IMG/VR virus record: IMGVR_UViG_3300042445_001212
Location: 1-25,005 of that record
Strand: one strand, 5' to 3'
Source: a virus
DNA: 25,005 bases
Below the pieces are notes generated by a model, which did no database searches, was not told where the DNA came from, and was given only the letters and a program-made list of their open reading frames with translations. Position 1 is the stretch's first letter, and each line of letters begins with the position of its first letter. The translations under genes and the position numbers were made by a program. Below are positions 3,918 through 21,081 of the stretch, one piece after another.

Positions 3918-5303
3918 ATTAAAAAATTTTTATATTCAGCAATAGTCTTAGCTATATTTTCTTTATCATTACTTTGGCCAACTACTGCTAAAGCATCTAC
4001 AACTGCAGTGTGCGACACCTATCAAGTTAATGGTGGTGATCAGGCATTCTTAATGAATTTAAATACCCCACTAGAATTTGGTGGCACTGTATATAATGGT
4101 AACGTTTATGTGAGTCCTAAAGGAACAGTAACGTTTGGACAGGGTGATTATACTTTTTGGGACTACCCAGCAACACCATCAATCTCTATAGCTTCGTGGG
4201 ACTATCACGCTTTTGCAACTGGAACACATCCTTGGGCAGCACAGAATGATTTGTATGTAAGGTATGGGTCAACAGCAACATCAATTTGTGTTGATTGGAA
4301 AGTTTTGCCTTGGGGTCAGTCTTCTGGAAATCCAGTTTATATAAGATTAATTGCAGAAGTAAATCCAGTAAATTACACCTGGACCCCTACCTATCAAGTA
4401 AGTTCTACTGCTCCAGCAGGTGCTAGATATGGTGTTCGTTATACTCAGGGTGGTCCAGTATTACCTTTAACTATTCAAACAATAACTGAGCCACCAGCAC
4501 CAGCTCCTGTGGTTCCTCCAGCCCCAGAGCCGTCTCCAGAACCTACTCCAGAAGAGCCTACGCCTAGCCCTACACCTACCCCAGAGCCAACCCCAGAGCC
4601 AACCCCAGAGCCAACCCCAGAGCCAACCCCAGAGCCTACGCCTGAACCTACTCCAAGCCCTGCCGTGCCCGTTGAACCTGTCGTGCCACCAACCAACCCA
4701 GTAGACCCAACACCAGAACCTTCCCTGGAGCCTGAGCCACAAGTGCCGCCAGGAATAGAGCTAGAGGAACTAGAAGAAGCAATCCTGCCAACTGAAGAAC
4801 TTGAAGAATTTGTAGAACCTTCACCTGAAATAACTCCTTATATTATAGAACCAGAAGAAGAGTTTATCACATCTGCAGAAGAATTACAAGAGGACATATC
4901 TGCAGAAGAATTAATGCAGGTAGATTTTGATCTAATTATAGCTACAGACCTTTCAGAAGCTCAGGTAGAGGCCATCATAGAGGCTGCGTTAGAAATATTT
5001 GAAACAGCAGAAGAAGGTTCTCTAGAATACGAACAAGCTCTTGAAGCTTTGTTTTTAGCGGCTGAAGCAGATGACATAGTCATTGATGAAGCTATAGCAG
5101 CTATTCCACTTCTTGGAGATGTTCTTGGAGGAGCTACAGAACTTATTAACTTCCTTGGAAATGCTGGGGCAGACATGAGTCCAGAAACAAGGGAAGAGTC
5201 AGAAAAAGTAGTCGTTACAGCAATTGTTGCAGTGCAAGCAGCACTATCAGCAGTTTCTATAAGCGGTATAGCAACAACAGTAAACATAAGGAACGGAGCA
5301 TAA
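3918..5303 (+). CDS. Secreted protein with beta-rich head, PEPT repeats and helical tail; probable ATT start
   Basis: An in-frame stop at 3900 and no ATG, GTG or TTG before the GTG at 4008 leave ATT at 3918 as the start: it is 7 nt after AAGGAGA and gives a textbook signal peptide (KKF, hydrophobic core AIVLAIFSLSLLW, cleavage near AKA-ST). Starting at GTG 4008 would remove the whole signal. After the signal comes a beta-rich domain resembling nidogen-like (NIDO) domains, with PKGTVTFGQ and ASWDYHAFA, then a Pro/Glu linker of PEPT repeats, an acidic stretch and an Ala-rich helical tail (EAQVEAIIEAALEIFETAEE). C-terminal tails of this sort recur in actinophage proteins. Function unknown; a surface, exclusion or receptor role is inference. 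ATG of the next gene follows directly. Confidence 0.75.
   Translation: MKKFLYSAIVLAIFSLSLLWPTTAKASTTAVCDTYQVNGGDQAFLMNLNTPLEFGGTVYNGNVYVSPKGTVTFGQGDYTFWDYPATPSISIASWDYHAFATGTHPWAAQNDLYVRYGSTATSICVDWKVLPWGQSSGNPVYIRLIAEVNPVNYTWTPTYQVSSTAPAGARYGVRYTQGGPVLPLTIQTITEPPAPAPVVPPAPEPSPEPTPEEPTPSPTPTPEPTPEPTPEPTPEPTPEPTPEPTPSPAVPVEPVVPPTNPVDPTPEPSLEPEPQVPPGIELEELEEAILPTEELEEFVEPSPEITPYIIEPEEEFITSAEELQEDISAEELMQVDFDLIIATDLSEAQVEAIIEAALEIFETAEEGSLEYEQALEALFLAAEADDIVIDEAIAAIPLLGDVLGGATELINFLGNAGADMSPETREESEKVVVTAIVAVQAALSAVSISGIATTVNIRNGA
4581..4652 (+). repeat. 12-bp tandem repeat coding PEPT
   Basis: Four perfect copies of CCAGAGCCAACC (4581-4628) followed by two degenerate copies (to 4652). They encode a (PEPT)n linker inside the secreted protein. 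Copy number is likely to vary between relatives through slippage. The repeats also create long open frames on the other strand that are not genes. Confidence 0.9.
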
Positions 5304-5836: not shown

Positions 5837-6367
5837 ATGACCTGTATAGCTGCCATTAAAGCCAATGGCAAAGTATATATGGCTGGAGATCGTGGGGCAT
5901 CAACTGATGATACCATCATGCATATTTCTAAGCCAAAAGTTAAAGCATTTGGTCCATATGTAATAGGATATGGAGGAACTATGGAAGGTCAAAGATTACA
6001 ATATAGCTTTGATCCTCCAAAACCACATCCAGATGAAGACCTAGATGTTTTTATGCACACAACATTTCTAAAATATCTTAAAGATTTTTATGAAGAGTGG
6101 TGGGTTGAAACATCAAAAGATGCAGAACTAGAGATGTTAATTTCAATTAAAGACAAGCTGTATGAGCATACTTCTTCAGACATGTCTATGAATGAGTTTT
6201 CTTCTAACTTCTTGTCTATTGGATCTGGTTCATCCTTTGCTATGGGATATTTATCTGCAACTGTTTCTACTAAAATGACCCCAGAAAAAATGGTAGAAGG
6301 TGCAGTAAAAACTGCAATTAAATTTTCACCAACTTGCTCTGGCACCGTTGACATTCTATCCACTTAG
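5837..6367 (+). CDS. Proteasome beta-subunit/HslV-like Ntn hydrolase
   Basis: 176 residues. After loss of Met1 the chain begins with threonine, as in proteasome beta subunits and HslV, where Thr1 is the nucleophile. Numbering from that Thr, the other catalytic positions fall where they do in the family: D17 in AGDRGAS, K33 in ISKPKVK, the G45-G46 turn in GYGG and S129 in GSGSSFAMG. The usual D166 is not visible (FSPTCSG instead of an Asp-x-x-Ser-Gly), so activity may be reduced or differently supported. There is no propeptide. It has its own strong promoter and no ATPase partner (HslU, ARC/Mpa) within the window. Roles could be protein turnover of host factors or prohead proteolysis; both are inference. 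Confidence 0.75.
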   Translation: MTCIAAIKANGKVYMAGDRGASTDDTIMHISKPKVKAFGPYVIGYGGTMEGQRLQYSFDPPKPHPDEDLDVFMHTTFLKYLKDFYEEWWVETSKDAELEMLISIKDKLYEHTSSDMSMNEFSSNFLSIGSGSSFAMGYLSATVSTKMTPEKMVEGAVKTAIKFSPTCSGTVDILST

Positions 6368-7929: not shown

Positions 7930-7997
7930 TGATATAATTTATATTCCTGCCCAGTAAAAGGGAGGAACAAAACAACTCGCTGAAAAGGAGAAACAAA
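7930..7997 (+). promoter_or_regulatory. Promoter and structured leader of the first hsp20 gene
   Basis: Extended -10 TGaTATAAT (7930-7938); transcription should start at about 7945. There the RNA begins with a hairpin: TTCCT-[bulged G]-CCC (7944-7952) pairs with GGG-AGGAA (7960-7967). It is followed by ACTCGCT, then AAGGAG (7986-7991) before the ATG at 7998. The second hsp20 leader (19359-19409) has the same order: CCTGCCCA arm, bulged G, ACTCGCT, AAGGAG. Confidence 0.6.
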
Positions 7998-8393
7998 ATG
8001 GTAACAACATTTACTACGGAGTTCTTAAAAGATCCGTTTTTTAATATGGGTTTGAATACCCTGGCAGCACCAAAACCTAGCTATCCACCATACAATATTG
8101 TAAAGATTGACGAAGATACTTTGGTCATGGAATTTGCGGTAGCTGGATTTAAAAGGGATGAGATCAGTGTTACAACTGAAAAGAATGTCCTAACTATCAA
8201 GTCAACAAAAGATGATTCTGACGATAAGGAATACCTGCACAAAGGTATTGCTGCTCGTAAGTTTACTCGTTCTTTTACACTACCTGAATATTTTGAGGTA
8301 GATGGAGCAACAGTTGACAATGGCATTCTATACATTAATCTAATTAGGAATATTCCAGAAGAGAAGAAGCCTAAAGTAATTAATATCAAGTAA
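7998..8393 (+). CDS. hsp20: Small heat-shock protein (Hsp20/alpha-crystallin), copy 1
   Basis: An ATP-independent holdase chaperone that binds unfolding proteins as oligomers. 131 residues with a short N-terminal arm (LKDPFFNMGLN), an alpha-crystallin domain (about 33-122; MEFAVAGFKRDEISV, GIAARKFTRSF, LPEYFEVDGATVDNGILYI) and a C-terminal I-x-I motif (INI) that normally links dimers. The domain is highly similar to the second copy at 19410. Phage-encoded Hsp20 is known from cyanophages and often assists in virion assembly or stress during infection. It follows tRNA-Thr and has its own promoter. Confidence 0.95.
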   Translation: MVTTFTTEFLKDPFFNMGLNTLAAPKPSYPPYNIVKIDEDTLVMEFAVAGFKRDEISVTTEKNVLTIKSTKDDSDDKEYLHKGIAARKFTRSFTLPEYFEVDGATVDNGILYINLIRNIPEEKKPKVINIK

Positions 8394-8397
8394 AAAA

Positions 8398-8427
8398 ACA
8401 ACCTGAGCACGTTGATAAAAGGCTCAT
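8398..8427 (+). other. Conserved hairpin element downstream of hsp20, copy 1
   Basis: ACAACCTGAGCACGTTGATAAAAGGCTCA, with TGAGC pairing to GCTCA (stem at 8404-8408 and 8422-8426), begins a few bases after the hsp20 stop. The same element with a compensatory pair change (TGGGC/GCCCA) follows the second hsp20 gene. Only the pair and one loop base differ. An extended -10 lies 13 nt further on. Confidence 0.65.
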
Positions 8428-8436
8428 CTTAAAAAC

Positions 8437-8483
8437 TGATATAATAGAGTTATGCTGAAAAGCATTTAACCCTATAAGGAGAT
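8437..8483 (+). promoter_or_regulatory. Promoter and 5' hairpin of the M23 endolysin gene
   Basis: Extended -10 TGaTATAAT (8437-8445) without a clear -35. The predicted RNA start (about 8452) coincides with a hairpin ATGCT-GAAA-AGCAT (8452-8465) having a GNRA-type tetraloop. The Shine-Dalgarno AAGGAG follows and the ATG is at 8489. Confidence 0.6.
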
Positions 8484-8488
8484 TTAAT

Positions 8489-9175
8489 ATGACAACTTGG
8501 ATTAGGCCAGTAGATGGCGGATCAATTTCAGATACTTTTGAAGGACACAAGAATAGAGCAAAGCCAGCTCTAAACCCAGGAATAGACTATGCGGTTGGTA
8601 CTGGTACACCAGTAAAAGCAGTTGCCGATGGAACTGTAACTGGTATTGTTACAACATTCACTGGCTCTGGTGGCATGATGATATTCCTAAGCTTCCCTTC
8701 AGGTCACACAGCAGACTACTTACATCTTTCACGTATTGATGTTACTCCAGGACAGGCAGTAAAGCAAGGTCAAGTACTTGGACTATCAGGTGGCTCAGGG
8801 CTGGGCTCTATGACTGGCTATGGCGCTCACCTTCACTTCTCTTTCCGTGTTGGTGGTAAGCCAACAATGGGTGCAGGCAACATTGACTACGAAGCTTTCC
8901 GTGGAGCACCTACAAGCGCTGCACCAGCAAAGCCAGCTGCTGCCACCAAGGCACCTGCTGCATCTTCTAGTGGATCAAGACCTTATCCTGGAAAAGAACT
9001 AAAGAAGGGTGCACCAGCAGGTCCAGATGTTCTTTACCTACAAAACAAGCTAGGCATAAACCCTCCAGGTCCGTTTGGCCCACAAACTCACACTGCTGTT
9101 GTTGCTTTCCAAAAGAAGCACAATTTGCTAGCAGATGGAATTGTTGGCCCACTAACTTGGTCCAAACTGGGCTAA
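8489..9175 (+). CDS. Endolysin: M23 peptidase with peptidoglycan-binding domain
   Basis: 228 residues. Residues 1-145 form an M23 (LytM-type) zinc endopeptidase that cuts peptidoglycan cross-bridges: D33 in NPGIDYAVG, H79 in YLHLS and H114/H116 in GAHLHFSF. In LytM the first zinc ligand is a His four residues before the Asp; here that place holds Asn29, and the nearest His is H20 in EGHKNR, an arrangement I also associate with actinophage lysins. A Pro/Ala/Ser linker (about 146-168) joins a C-terminal PG_binding_1 domain (KKGAPAGPDVLYLQNKLG to GIVGPLTWSKLG). No signal peptide, so a holin is needed for export. Confidence 0.9.
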   Translation: MTTWIRPVDGGSISDTFEGHKNRAKPALNPGIDYAVGTGTPVKAVADGTVTGIVTTFTGSGGMMIFLSFPSGHTADYLHLSRIDVTPGQAVKQGQVLGLSGGSGLGSMTGYGAHLHFSFRVGGKPTMGAGNIDYEAFRGAPTSAAPAKPAAATKAPAASSSGSRPYPGKELKKGAPAGPDVLYLQNKLGINPPGPFGPQTHTAVVAFQKKHNLLADGIVGPLTWSKLG

Positions 9176-10347: not shown

Positions 10348-11397
10348 ATGACAGAAAATAATAGCGGTGGCATCAAAGAGCCAGGAGACTGGCCAACTGG
10401 TAAGTCTAAAAATGTTGGTCGCAAACTTAAGGCAAAGCGTCGTAAGCCAGTATATGTTTCTGACTCTACTGGTGCTGTAATTGCTGGAAATAGTTCAATG
10501 ACAACAAAGTCAGCGATCAAAGAAGGTGACTTCGTAATGGGTCAGACTTCTGAGGGTGTTGTTCATGGAGTTGTTGAACACATCATGTGGGAGGGTGGAA
10601 CACTTGGAACACCTGGATCAGAGTATGCTCTTGAGTCTATGCCACCAGAAAATCCAGCGATGTCTGTAAGAATTTATGAAGAAGACGATGACACGTGGGA
10701 GCCAACCGCCTATAGCATTGGAATGATGTATGTAGACGCAACAGTTTTTGAAATGGAAGACCATGACATGGATGAAATGGAAATGATTTCAAAAGCAGAT
10801 AGCTATTCTCCAACATCTGGAATGAAGTCTGCAGCACGTCGTGCACTTAAATGGAAAGCAGAAGGAAAAGCTACAGGAGCTGGAACGCCAGTTGGCTGGG
10901 GTAGGGCAACAGATATCGTAGCTGGAAGATCAATGTCTTTATCAGTAGTTAAAAGAATGTATTCTTTCTTCGCCAGACATGAAGTAGACAAAAAAGGAAA
11001 AGACTTTTACAATACAAGCAATCCTAGTAACGGTCGTATTATGTGGGACGCCTGGGGTGGAGACGCAGGATTCTCTTGGTCACGTGCAATTGCAAACCGT
11101 GAAATGGACAAAGCCTTGTTTTCTAATTTTGGAAAAGACTATACAAATGTAGATCAGCTTACACAAATATTTAAATCTGTTACAGTTGGATCAATGGTCT
11201 CCTGGAACTCTTCTGGAGGAAGAGCATCTGGAAAAGTAACAAGAATTATTCGCAGTGGAACTTACAATGTTCCAGGAACAGACGTTAGCCTAAATGCTAG
11301 CGAAGAAGACCCAGTAGCAGTCATCAGACTATATCGTGATGGAGAAGCTACTGACACAACCGTTGCCCACAAACTAAAAACTTTACGAACCCTTTAG
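10348..11397 (+). CDS. Multi-domain phage protein with HVA1/tudor-like C-terminal domain (paralogue A)
   Basis: 349 residues. After a basic N-terminus (RRKP), residues about 56-135 form an SH3/tudor-like unit (KEGDFVMGQTSEGVVHGVVE). Residues about 150-255 form a conserved phage domain: SPTSGMKSAARRALKW, FFARHEVDKKGKD, WDAWGGDAGFSWSR. Residues about 277-349 resemble DUF2945 (HVA1 tudor) with GSMVSWNSSGGRASGKV and a KLKTL end. The first two units recur in order in the 390-residue protein at 19909, which lacks the last one. I know the central domain from phage structural-gene regions, but its function is unknown; a virion-associated role is inference. Leaderless expression is predicted. Confidence 0.75.
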   Translation: MTENNSGGIKEPGDWPTGKSKNVGRKLKAKRRKPVYVSDSTGAVIAGNSSMTTKSAIKEGDFVMGQTSEGVVHGVVEHIMWEGGTLGTPGSEYALESMPPENPAMSVRIYEEDDDTWEPTAYSIGMMYVDATVFEMEDHDMDEMEMISKADSYSPTSGMKSAARRALKWKAEGKATGAGTPVGWGRATDIVAGRSMSLSVVKRMYSFFARHEVDKKGKDFYNTSNPSNGRIMWDAWGGDAGFSWSRAIANREMDKALFSNFGKDYTNVDQLTQIFKSVTVGSMVSWNSSGGRASGKVTRIIRSGTYNVPGTDVSLNASEEDPVAVIRLYRDGEATDTTVAHKLKTLRTL

Positions 11398-19343: not shown

Positions 19344-19409
19344 TGCTATAATTATTAGGCCTGCCCAATTGGGGGGCATTAACTCGCTTAATACAAGGAG
19401 ATGATATAC
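19344..19409 (+). promoter_or_regulatory. Promoter and structured leader of the second hsp20 gene
   Basis: Extended -10 TGcTATAAT (19344-19352); predicted RNA start 19359, where a hairpin begins: GCCT-[bulged G]-CCC (19359-19367) pairs with GGG-GGGC (19371-19377) around AATT. ACTCGCT follows, then AAGGAG (19395-19400), 9 nt from the ATG at 19410. The layout repeats that of 7930-7997. Confidence 0.6.
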
Positions 19410-19799
19410 ATGGTTATTACAACACCATTTGCAGGATTTGGTCTAGATATTGACAAATTCTTTAGCACAACACCAGCAGCAAACACCTACCCACCATACA
19501 ACGTTGTCAGGATTGACGACGACAAGATTGTGATGGAGTTTGCGGTAGCTGGATTCAAGAAGAACGAGATCAGTATTACTACTGAGAAAAATGTTCTATC
19601 TATAAAAGCAGAAAGGCCAGACGCTGACGATAAGAAATACCTACACAAGGGTATTGCTGCTCGTAAGTTTACTCGCTCATTCTCACTACCCGAATACTAT
19701 GAAGTAGATTTGGCTAAGTTTGAAGACGGCATTCTGTATGTTCATTTAGTAAGAAACATCCCAGAAGAGAAAAAACCAAAATCAATTAAGATTGGTTAA
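19410..19799 (+). CDS. hsp20: Small heat-shock protein (Hsp20/alpha-crystallin), copy 2
   Basis: 129 residues from ATG 19410; the in-frame ATG at 19401 touches the Shine-Dalgarno and is rejected. The alpha-crystallin domain (MEFAVAGFKKNEISI, GIAARKFTRSF, LPEYYEVD, DGILYVHLVRN) is nearly identical to copy 1 over long runs, while the N-terminal arms differ (AGFGLDIDKFFSTTPA). The C-terminal I-x-I motif is IKI. Different N-terminal arms suggest different clients or co-assembly of mixed oligomers. Confidence 0.95.
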   Translation: MVITTPFAGFGLDIDKFFSTTPAANTYPPYNVVRIDDDKIVMEFAVAGFKKNEISITTEKNVLSIKAERPDADDKKYLHKGIAARKFTRSFSLPEYYEVDLAKFEDGILYVHLVRNIPEEKKPKSIKIG

Positions 19800-19815: not shown

Positions 19816-19848
19816 TAGGTAGCTTAACTTTCCAAGGACCGCTACCTA
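19816..19848 (+). terminator. Hairpin after hsp20 copy 2
   Basis: TAGGTAGC (19816-19823) pairs perfectly with GCTACCTA (19841-19848) around a 17-nt loop. There is no T run after it, so it may be a non-canonical terminator or an RNA element. No counterpart after copy 1. Confidence 0.45.
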
Positions 19849-19852
19849 GGAG

Positions 19853-19883
19853 ACAACCTGGGCACGTTGCTAAAAGGCCCACA
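19853..19883 (+). other. Conserved hairpin element downstream of hsp20, copy 2
   Basis: ACAACCTGGGCACGTTGCTAAAAGGCCCA: TGGGC pairs with GCCCA. Compared with the copy at 8398 the second base pair of the stem is G-C instead of A-U, a compensatory change, and one loop base differs. The extended -10 of the next gene lies 13-15 nt downstream in both places. Confidence 0.65.
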
Positions 19884-19893
19884 ACAATACATA

Positions 19894-19902
19894 TGATATA
19901 AT
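19894..19902 (+). promoter_or_regulatory. Extended -10 of a leaderless gene
   Basis: TGaTATAAT ending at 19902, 6 nt before ATG 19909. Identical spacing to the promoter of its paralogue at 10333. Confidence 0.65.
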
Positions 19903-19908
19903 GGCTAT

Positions 19909-21081
19909 ATGCCATATCATGTTGGAGAAAAGGGATCTTACGGTTGCTCAGGCTACCCTGCCCTTAAAGACGATGGAACTGTAATGGGTTGCCACACTAC
20001 AGCCGAAGAAGCTGCTAATCAAATTTATGCAATCAATCAGTCTGAGGGAAATATTGAAGCTGGTGTTGGAATTACTAATCCAGAAGAATGGCCTATGGAT
20101 AAAGCAGAGACTGATAGAAATGGTATGGGTTCCAAAATTGGTCAGCCAGAGCCAGCCTCTAAAAAACCTTCTGCACTAAAAGATCCTAAGAAAAAACCAA
20201 AGAATAGAGTTGGTGGTGCTGGTGGAGATTCTGCTGGTGCAATCTCAACTACAAATGGTGGAACATCTATGGGAACTAAGGCAGACGAGAAGGTTGCCCC
20301 TTGCTGGGATGGATACACTCAGAGGGGAATGAAGCCAGGGGACAATGGTCGCATGGTTCCTAACTGTATTCCAGTTTCTAAAGCAGAAGCTCGCATTACT
20401 GAGGGAGACTTCGTAAGTGCAAGGACCGTAGAAGGTATGATCATTGGTCAGGTAGAGCACATTATGCGTGAAGGCGGCAGATATGGCGAGCCAGGAAACC
20501 CTTACTCTATTGAGTCTACTCCAGAAAATCCAGCGGTAGCTATTAGAATTTTAGAAGAAGACAATGGAATCTACGAATACGACGATGAAATGTACTACTA
20601 CACACCATACTCAATTGGTGCATTGATGTCAGACGTCGAAAGAATTAACATGCCAAACATCAGTATGGAAGATTATGAGGATGGTAAATATGATGAATAC
20701 ATGGACAAAGCTGAAGGCTACTCTCCTCCTGCTGGGGCTAGGGCTGCTGCTCGTAGGGCTATCAAGTTCAAAGAAGACGGCAAAGCAACAGGAGCAGGAA
20801 CTGCAGTTGGATGGACTAGAGCTAGACAATTGGCTAATGGAGAGACACTCTCGCTAAGCACAGTTAAGCGTATGTATTCCTACTTCTCTCGTCACGAAGT
20901 AGACAAGAAGGGTAAGGATTGGGGAAACCAGGCTAATCCTTCTAATGGATACATTATGTGGCTAGCGTGGGGTGGAGATGCGGGATACTCTTGGTCTCGC
21001 AAAATCTCTCAAAGAGAAGCAGACAAAGCTCTATTTTCTGACTTTGGTAAAGATTATACCTCAGTAACAAGACTAATTTAG
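19909..21081 (+). CDS. Multi-domain phage protein (paralogue B of 10348)
   Basis: 390 residues. Residues 1-50 are a small Cys/His domain (PYHVGEKGSYGCSGYPALK, MGCHTTAEEAANQIYA) also met at the ends of phage head proteins; residues about 131-156 hold PCWDGYTQRGMKPGDNGR with VPNCIPV; residues about 162-245 are the SH3/tudor-like unit (TEGDFVSARTVEGMIIGQVE); residues about 268-370 are the domain GARAAARRAIKF, YFSRHEVDKKGKDWG, WLAWGGDAGYSWSR. It lacks the DUF2945-like end of paralogue A. Virion association is inferred from where such domains occur. Leaderless. Confidence 0.75.
   Translation: MPYHVGEKGSYGCSGYPALKDDGTVMGCHTTAEEAANQIYAINQSEGNIEAGVGITNPEEWPMDKAETDRNGMGSKIGQPEPASKKPSALKDPKKKPKNRVGGAGGDSAGAISTTNGGTSMGTKADEKVAPCWDGYTQRGMKPGDNGRMVPNCIPVSKAEARITEGDFVSARTVEGMIIGQVEHIMREGGRYGEPGNPYSIESTPENPAVAIRILEEDNGIYEYDDEMYYYTPYSIGALMSDVERINMPNISMEDYEDGKYDEYMDKAEGYSPPAGARAAARRAIKFKEDGKATGAGTAVGWTRARQLANGETLSLSTVKRMYSYFSRHEVDKKGKDWGNQANPSNGYIMWLAWGGDAGYSWSRKISQREADKALFSDFGKDYTSVTRLI

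Follow-up and report, generated by a model that had tools for sequence, protein, structure and literature searches.

The two hsp20 genes of the window (the whole stretch of viral DNA analysed here, 25,005 nt, from IMG/VR record IMGVR_UViG_3300042445_001212) are each followed by a 28-nt element that is, almost beyond doubt, a compact H-type pseudoknot, in which CAAC/GUUG (S1) is interlocked with UGRGC/GCYCA (S2). Judging from sequence comparison, this element may well be a cis-acting part of the upstream gene's 3' UTR, where it would protect the 3' end of abundant phage mRNAs or define it, a reading to which we give an even chance. A sequence-only reading had reported a 29-nt repeat at 8398 and 19853, each time 3' of hsp20, and both copies were found at these places (ACAACCTGAGCACGTTGATAAAAGGCTCA, 8398-8426; ACAACCTGGGCACGTTGCTAAAAGGCCCA, 19853-19881). 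They differ, as it had also described, at three positions, namely the two bases of one stem pair (A-U to G-C) and one loop base. The general architecture comprises an S1 of about 4 bp, an S2 of 5-6 bp, and linkers of one C, two nucleotides and an A-rich loop (Table 1).

Table 1. Features around the two pseudoknot copies of the window, with the stems (S) and loops (L) of each copy
Feature	Positions	Strand	Evidence or details
hsp20 gene 1 (131 aa), partner 5' of element 1	7998..8393	+	PF00011 (9.4e-20), phrog_432
Pseudoknot element 1	8399..8426	+	sequence, descriptor scan, covariation in relatives; first nucleotide 5 nt past the stop codon
Element 1, S1	8399-8402/8411-8414		CAAC/GTTG
Element 1, L1	8403		C
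Element 1, S2	8404-8408/8422-8426		TGAGC/GCTCA
Element 1, L2	8409-8410		AC
Element 1, L3	8415-8421		ATAAAAG; crosses S1
Extended -10 of the next gene (8489..9175)	8437..8445	+	TGATATAAT; sequence; hsp20 relatives alike
M23 peptidase with peptidoglycan-binding domain (endolysin-like), next gene after element 1	8489..9175	+	PF01551 (2.2e-21), PF01471 (3.2e-11)
hsp20 gene 2 (132 aa), partner 5' of element 2	19401..19799	+	PF00011 (1.8e-20), phrog_432
Hairpin AGGTAGC...GCTACCT, between hsp20 gene 2 and element 2	19817..19847	+	sequence, predicted fold
Pseudoknot element 2 (sequence, descriptor scan, covariation in relatives)	19854..19881	+	
Element 2, S1	19854-19857/19866-19869		
Element 2, L1	19858		C
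Element 2, S2	19859-19863/19877-19881	+	TGGGC/GCCCA
Element 2, L2	19864-19865		
Element 2, L3	19870-19876		
Extended -10 of the next gene (19909-21081)	19894..19902	+	TGATATAAT; sequence

The 5-bp stem had initially been taken for a hairpin, and the interlocking stem CAAC/GTTG, which flanks the first half of that stem, had been overlooked. Indeed, dinucleotide shuffles fold as well as the 5-bp hairpin by itself (z -0.19), and a pseudoknot descriptor has exactly two matches in the window, versus 0-0.2 per shuffled genome; a search with a 17-mer, allowing up to 3 mismatches, also gave two window matches, versus a chance mean of 0.09. The two window copies are thin evidence by themselves and are probably paralogous, because the identity between the hsp20 genes is 76% over 300 nt and another pair of genes is repeated as well (10348-11397 and 19909-21081, both phrog_2859, with repeated stretches). 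These phrog_2859 paralogues are repeated together with hsp20 and the element, which suggests a duplicated hsp20-element-gene block that was later split by insertions.

A search with the Hsp20 protein gathered 80 loci without using the RNA, and 200 nt past each hsp20 stop were scanned. The pseudoknot is present in 52 of the 80 loci, versus 1.2% of shuffled flanks, and variants missed by the strict filter were found in three loci. S1 takes the forms CAAC/GTTG, CATC/GATG, AGCC/GGCT, AGTC/GACT, ACTC/GAGT, ACAC/GTGT and CGTC/GACG, and S2 the forms TGAGC/GCTCA, TGGGC/GCCCA, TGGCC/GGCCA, TAGGC/GCCTA and TGGGAC/GTCCCA. In 28 distinct sequences from these loci, (i) 99.2% of the cells are paired (80.0 in shuffles, at most 36.5 in slid alignments), (ii) 48 cells are doubly changed (14.4 in shuffles), (iii) the covariation score is 0.557 (0.194 in shuffles, at most 0.104 when slid) and (iv) 6 of the 9 pairs change on both sides, i.e. 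three of the four pairs of helix 1 and three of the five pairs of helix 2; the shuffle control ignores relatedness, but the compensatory changes nonetheless recur in many backgrounds. Two crossing stems with compensatory changes in each are what defines an H-type pseudoknot. Selection on RNA structure, as proposed from the sequence alone, is thus strongly supported by independent relatives in which both stems covary, and the structural interpretation survived a check for its two weak points, a lack of further covarying copies and likeness by duplication only. Furthermore, cells with a G-T wobble outnumber those with an A-C mismatch by about 14 to 1 in 38 hsp20-anchored sequences, which points to an RNA of the coding strand.

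In IMG/VR, the exact window sequence gave no match as a pattern, whereas a generalised pattern, CCTGNGCATGN{2,8}AAACTGCNCA, which leaves S1 pairs 2-4 and the middle S2 pair unconstrained, matched at least 120 stretches. The middle S2 pair is A-U or G-C in all 113 distinct viral sequences among the matches listed (2 of 16 combinations expected). In a set of 122 sequences, S1 pairs 2 and 3 are always paired, with all four Watson-Crick types, and pair 4 is paired in 103; pair 5 is paired less often than in shuffles, so that S1 is about 4 bp long. Because the pattern itself fixes the core bases, these were excluded as evidence.

The placement of the element was counted on 131 non-redundant viral copies, 14 of which lie inside a predicted ORF. 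For the copies outside ORFs, the upstream gene is on the same strand in 103 cases and on the opposite strand in 6. The distance from the stop codon to CCTG peaks at 6-14 nt, is never 5 nt or less and reaches over 50 nt. The proteins encoded upstream recur (DUF932 in 16/87, Hsp20 in 10/87, several ssDNA-binding proteins, two RNR and a capsid protein), whereas those encoded downstream are heterogeneous, the commonest family accounting for 4/63. Based on the strand bias, the stop distance and this difference between the two sides, the element belongs to the preceding gene. Three functions had been offered in the sequence-only reading, and the one best supported is that of an mRNA 3'-end stabiliser. 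A regulator of the next gene is disfavoured by the recurrence of the upstream neighbours, the heterogeneity of the downstream ones and the variable distance to the promoter, and a small free-standing RNA by a start only a few nucleotides past stop codons, on the coding strand. The extended -10 announced 13-15 nt downstream does follow both window copies (gaps of 13 and 15 nt between element and TATAAT); a promoter part (-35 or activator site) was rejected because the spacing to TATAAT varies between loci. A riboswitch, which would call for a 5' UTR, functionally linked genes and an expression platform, was rejected because the downstream genes are heterogeneous and the element lies 3' of the recurrent ones.

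A signal at the DNA level, such as a recombination linker or a nuclease target at module borders, would agree with the presence of the element at gene borders in unrelated phages and with an apparent CRISPR spacer carrying the motif (L269). Such a signal is barely credible, being largely refuted by the compensatory changes in crossing stems, by the wobble excess and by the orientation bias. The short distance between stop codon and knot would suit a translational element acting by stop-codon readthrough, by frameshifting or by blocking reinitiation at the next gene, and H-type pseudoknots a few nucleotides past the recoding site are known as readthrough or frameshift signals in other viruses. 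However, UAA dominates among the stop codons that precede the element (65 TAA, 13 TAG and 6 TGA), the distance varies from 6 to over 50 nt, and the frame past the hsp20 stop at element 1 closes again in about a dozen codons, which makes a translational role very improbable.

On its 3' side, the element is followed by a promoter (as in the window), an ORF with a ribosome-binding site, a tRNA or a tmRNA. A tRNA begins 3-13 nt 3' of the element in 10 of the 131 copies, the tRNA-Asp cases belonging mostly to one clade; the element also precedes tRNA-Val in the crAss phage cr124_1, a tmRNA in cr7_1 and a tRNA in Nostoc phage NMeng1. For roughly half of the copies, another ORF lies within 50 nt downstream on the same strand, so a copy need not always mark the end of a message.

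Searching with the DUF932 protein yielded 44 distinct 3' flanks, 42 of which contain the pseudoknot, with AAAT, AATT or TAAT in S1 and matching partners. One flank (L414) is a near miss, and another (L412) has a terminator-like hairpin (CGGGGGAGA-ATAAAA-TCTCCCCCG-TTTT) at the pseudoknot's spot, before the same tRNA as in its DUF932 relatives. Most hsp20 loci devoid of the knot have an RNA of about 90 nt that possesses a -10 and is closed by a GC-rich stem, behind which comes a T run. In view of these structures, the slot after hsp20 and DUF932 genes is filled by alternative 3'-end-like structures.

The hairpin of L412, which ends in four T, is also a likeness to intrinsic terminators, and the 3'-end reading has its strongest rivals in a pausing or termination of the polymerase and in a site for protein binding. 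In the former, the nascent pseudoknot would halt or release the host RNA polymerase between units, in replacement of a terminator hairpin. This is consistent with the hsp20 relatives of the window, where the element stands just before the next promoter, with TTTTT(T) starting 4 nt past S2 in some DUF932 copies, and with the near absence of G from the first 8 nt or so downstream (1-4% in the first four nucleotides). However, the U tract is inconsistent: T4 occurs within 12 nt in only 27/129 copies and T5 within 15 nt in 12/129, the window copies have no T tract, as previously remarked, and a same-strand gene without its own promoter often comes next. An intrinsic terminator in the usual sense (GC-rich hairpin with an immediate U tract) was rejected for this reason, the element being a pseudoknot whose simple-hairpin z is near 0, and pausing or termination by the knot itself is unlikely.

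From the structure, strand, place, partners and substitution described above, we infer an exonuclease block, a gain in stability and an abundance of the upstream product, which could be connected as follows: (i) the message would end 3' of the knot, by distant termination, by an endonuclease cut or by RNase P cleavage at the tRNA or tmRNA, (ii) the knot, with its A-rich third strand, would halt 3'-to-5' exonucleases, (iii) the upstream mRNA would thereby gain a defined and long-lived 3' end, and (iv) abundant Hsp20, ssDNA-binding protein or DUF932 protein would be favoured over the product of the next gene. The knot would stand in for a terminator or a REP-type hairpin without being an intrinsic terminator. 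Its position after the stop codon, on the coding strand, is indeed that of REP and other 3'-stabilising hairpins (PMC13289151), which are also structured, need no U tract and can be multi-copy. Unlike these, it is a 28-nt pseudoknot and not a long GC-rich hairpin, it is centred on phages, and its exonuclease block is putative. With the RNase R activity of B. subtilis, a tail of 12 nt behind a stem-loop was not digested and one of 28 nt was (PMC9040804); this limit fits a knot located 3-13 nt from an RNase P cut, since little single-stranded tail would be left. Conversely, the digestion of strong stems by RNase R when the tail is longer counts against an exonuclease block (PMC9040804). E. coli messages terminated by Rho are trimmed back as far as stabilising hairpins that lack U tracts and are followed by sequence rich in C and poor in G (PMC13289151). 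The parallel is weak because the G-poor stretch after the element is only about 10 nt long; a Rho-utilisation site was rejected on the same ground and for the absence of a long C-rich stretch.

Taken singly, the stems are weak (about -2 and -5 to -7 kcal/mol), so an exonuclease roadblock would depend on tertiary structure. Luteovirus frameshifting pseudoknots are H-type and very compact; their loop 1 contains a C, and their loop 3, which is rich in A, lies over stem 1. The element resembles them in its compact fold, loop 1 C and A-rich loop 3, and differs in its stem lengths, in being without a slippery-site function and in a triplex that is presumed.

A point against the 3'-end reading is that the invariant bases of L1, L2 and L3 might just as well be the mark of a binding site. 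According to this second rival, the fixed bases (L1 C, S2 UG, L2 AU, L3 AAAC) would form a pocket for a factor, from host or phage, that exerts feedback on the gene before the element or switches the gene after it. The hsp20 set was selected only by the flanking CC and a loose frame, and there too the core and unpaired bases are strongly conserved, with invariant columns; moreover, the T-even gene 32 and rpsO operators are protein-bound pseudoknots (PMC3014915), and genes for ssDNA-binding proteins are among the upstream partners. Such a site is doubtful, however, since hosts and genes are very diverse, the element comes after and not before the recurrent genes, and a triplex-stabilised knot would also show conserved loop bases. 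In T-even gene 32, the pseudoknot is found 67 nt before the gene's start codon, and gp32 binds it (PMC3014915). This pseudoknot and the present element are both small H-type pseudoknots of phage mRNA, with two stacked short stems and a link to an ssDNA-binding protein, but the present element stands 3' of the gene, differs in sequence, accompanies several kinds of genes and occurs in unrelated phages. An operator of the gene 32 type was rejected because the element is downstream of recurrent genes and the operator upstream of the start of the ssDNA-binding protein gene (PMC3014915). The STAXI RNA (RF01728; PMC2864571) is likewise a small pseudoknot of phage-like contexts, partly near genes for ssDNA-binding proteins; it is repeated at least twice and usually three times, often has UUCG loops and is found in Enterobacteriales. 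Membership in STAXI was rejected, as the present element has a different architecture, is mostly single and has no Rfam match.

Among phages, one to three strict copies per genome were found, and tandem candidates make up 3 of 113 among the matches listed, the element being mostly single. It lies right after the ribonucleotide reductase gene in Roseophage SIO1 and near the end of this gene in Celeribacter phage P12053L and Lentibacter phages ICBM1-3, and also occurs in the crAss-like phages cr7_1 and cr124_1, in Nostoc phage NMeng1 and in Lactobacillus phage phiEF-1.1; Mycobacterium phage Labelle and Proteus phage Myduc, seen as BLAST matches, are candidate carriers. The motif set was absent from the plasmids and E. 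coli genomes searched. In 198 Bacteroidota genomes, the pattern matched two genomes and the reversed control none; many pattern matches in genome contigs are due to chance, being within ORFs or without stems. A subset of the bacterial copies comes after an ORF of about 20 codons (M-K-R-F-x-x-P-R-V-A-H-C-x-E-G-C type) or overlaps its end, with one copy per genome where checked. Its neighbours are often redox genes, i.e. genes for superoxide dismutase, rubrerythrin, a prismane-family protein or aldo/keto reductase. The peptides had no NCBIfam match. Such mini-ORFs (MKRFxxPRVAHCxEGC...), with their end at the pseudoknot, were noted in ten loci of anaerobic and other bacteria; UGA stands directly past GGC-TGC in two loci (L245 and L303), and TGT takes that place in a third (L283).

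In Rfam 15, no family was above its gathering threshold: the window and 18 viral loci gave only tRNAs, and 18 genome loci nothing. A low-threshold search of window positions 8330-8520 and of four other loci returned weak matches far below the gathering scores. A literature search found no paper describing the motif, and motif sequence strings retrieved from full-text literature, among the matches listed, only papers on unrelated subjects; comparison with a 2023 phage-RNA catalogue was outside the scope of this search. In 2023, Fremin, Bhatt and Kyrpides reportedly catalogued structured RNAs predicted in viruses and phages. H-type pseudoknots and 3'-stabilising structures are known kinds of RNA, while the present family, its place and its spread appear undescribed. 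More tentatively, with a confidence somewhat short of even and based on sequence data, the element could represent an undescribed and widespread class of phage RNA, namely a minimal mRNA end resistant to 3'-to-5' exonucleases that replaces terminators in phages of alphaproteobacteria, gut bacteria, cyanobacteria and probably actinobacteria, and that is also found behind tiny cysteine-containing bacterial ORFs.

It is uncommon for unrelated phages to share a covarying structured RNA, and little is understood about bacterial 3' UTRs. The element bears on how phage messages without recognisable terminators obtain stable 3' ends, and a module of 28 nt with clear stem-swap mutants makes the idea directly testable. 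Should the element indeed block 3' exonucleases, it would be the bacterial equivalent of the exonuclease-resistant RNAs of viruses, acting in the reverse direction, and would provide a very small component for the construction of stable mRNAs.

Several other features were observed. The RNA of about 90 nt lies right after hsp20 in twelve loci. It has a TATAAT of its own, its closing stem (CCCCACACAGG/CCTGTGTGGGG and variants) covaries, its interior contains CTTAGGATGGATTAGTTACC and its end is rich in T; it has no Rfam match and is apparently a second undescribed RNA. The hairpin between hsp20 gene 2 and element 2 is also present in eight relatives. A Bacteroidetes MAG contig (JAGVVH010000482.1), likely a phage or prophage, has five strict copies in about 5 kb, four of them with CACGA/TCGT in S1, and a tandem second knot with a different S1. 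In an Oscillatoriaceae MAG (L269, position 212), the motif is directly 3' of CAGGGATTGAAA, which resembles the end of a CRISPR repeat, and is thus apparently a spacer that targets a copy in a phage. In Lentibacter phage ICBM2 (NC_048671.1, 13051-13097), the annotated glutaredoxin start is upstream of the pseudoknot and is, for this reason, probably wrong. Both hsp20 5' UTRs of the window (7945-7995 and 19362-19400) share CCTGCCCA...GGG...CTCGCT between TATAAT and the ribosome-binding site, which is perhaps another structured leader; this exact pattern did not recur in other loci. Finally, the window contains tandem 12-bp repeats coding for a proline-rich stretch (4505-4655) and a phage gene for an HslV/proteasome-like peptidase (5837-6367, phrog_1040).
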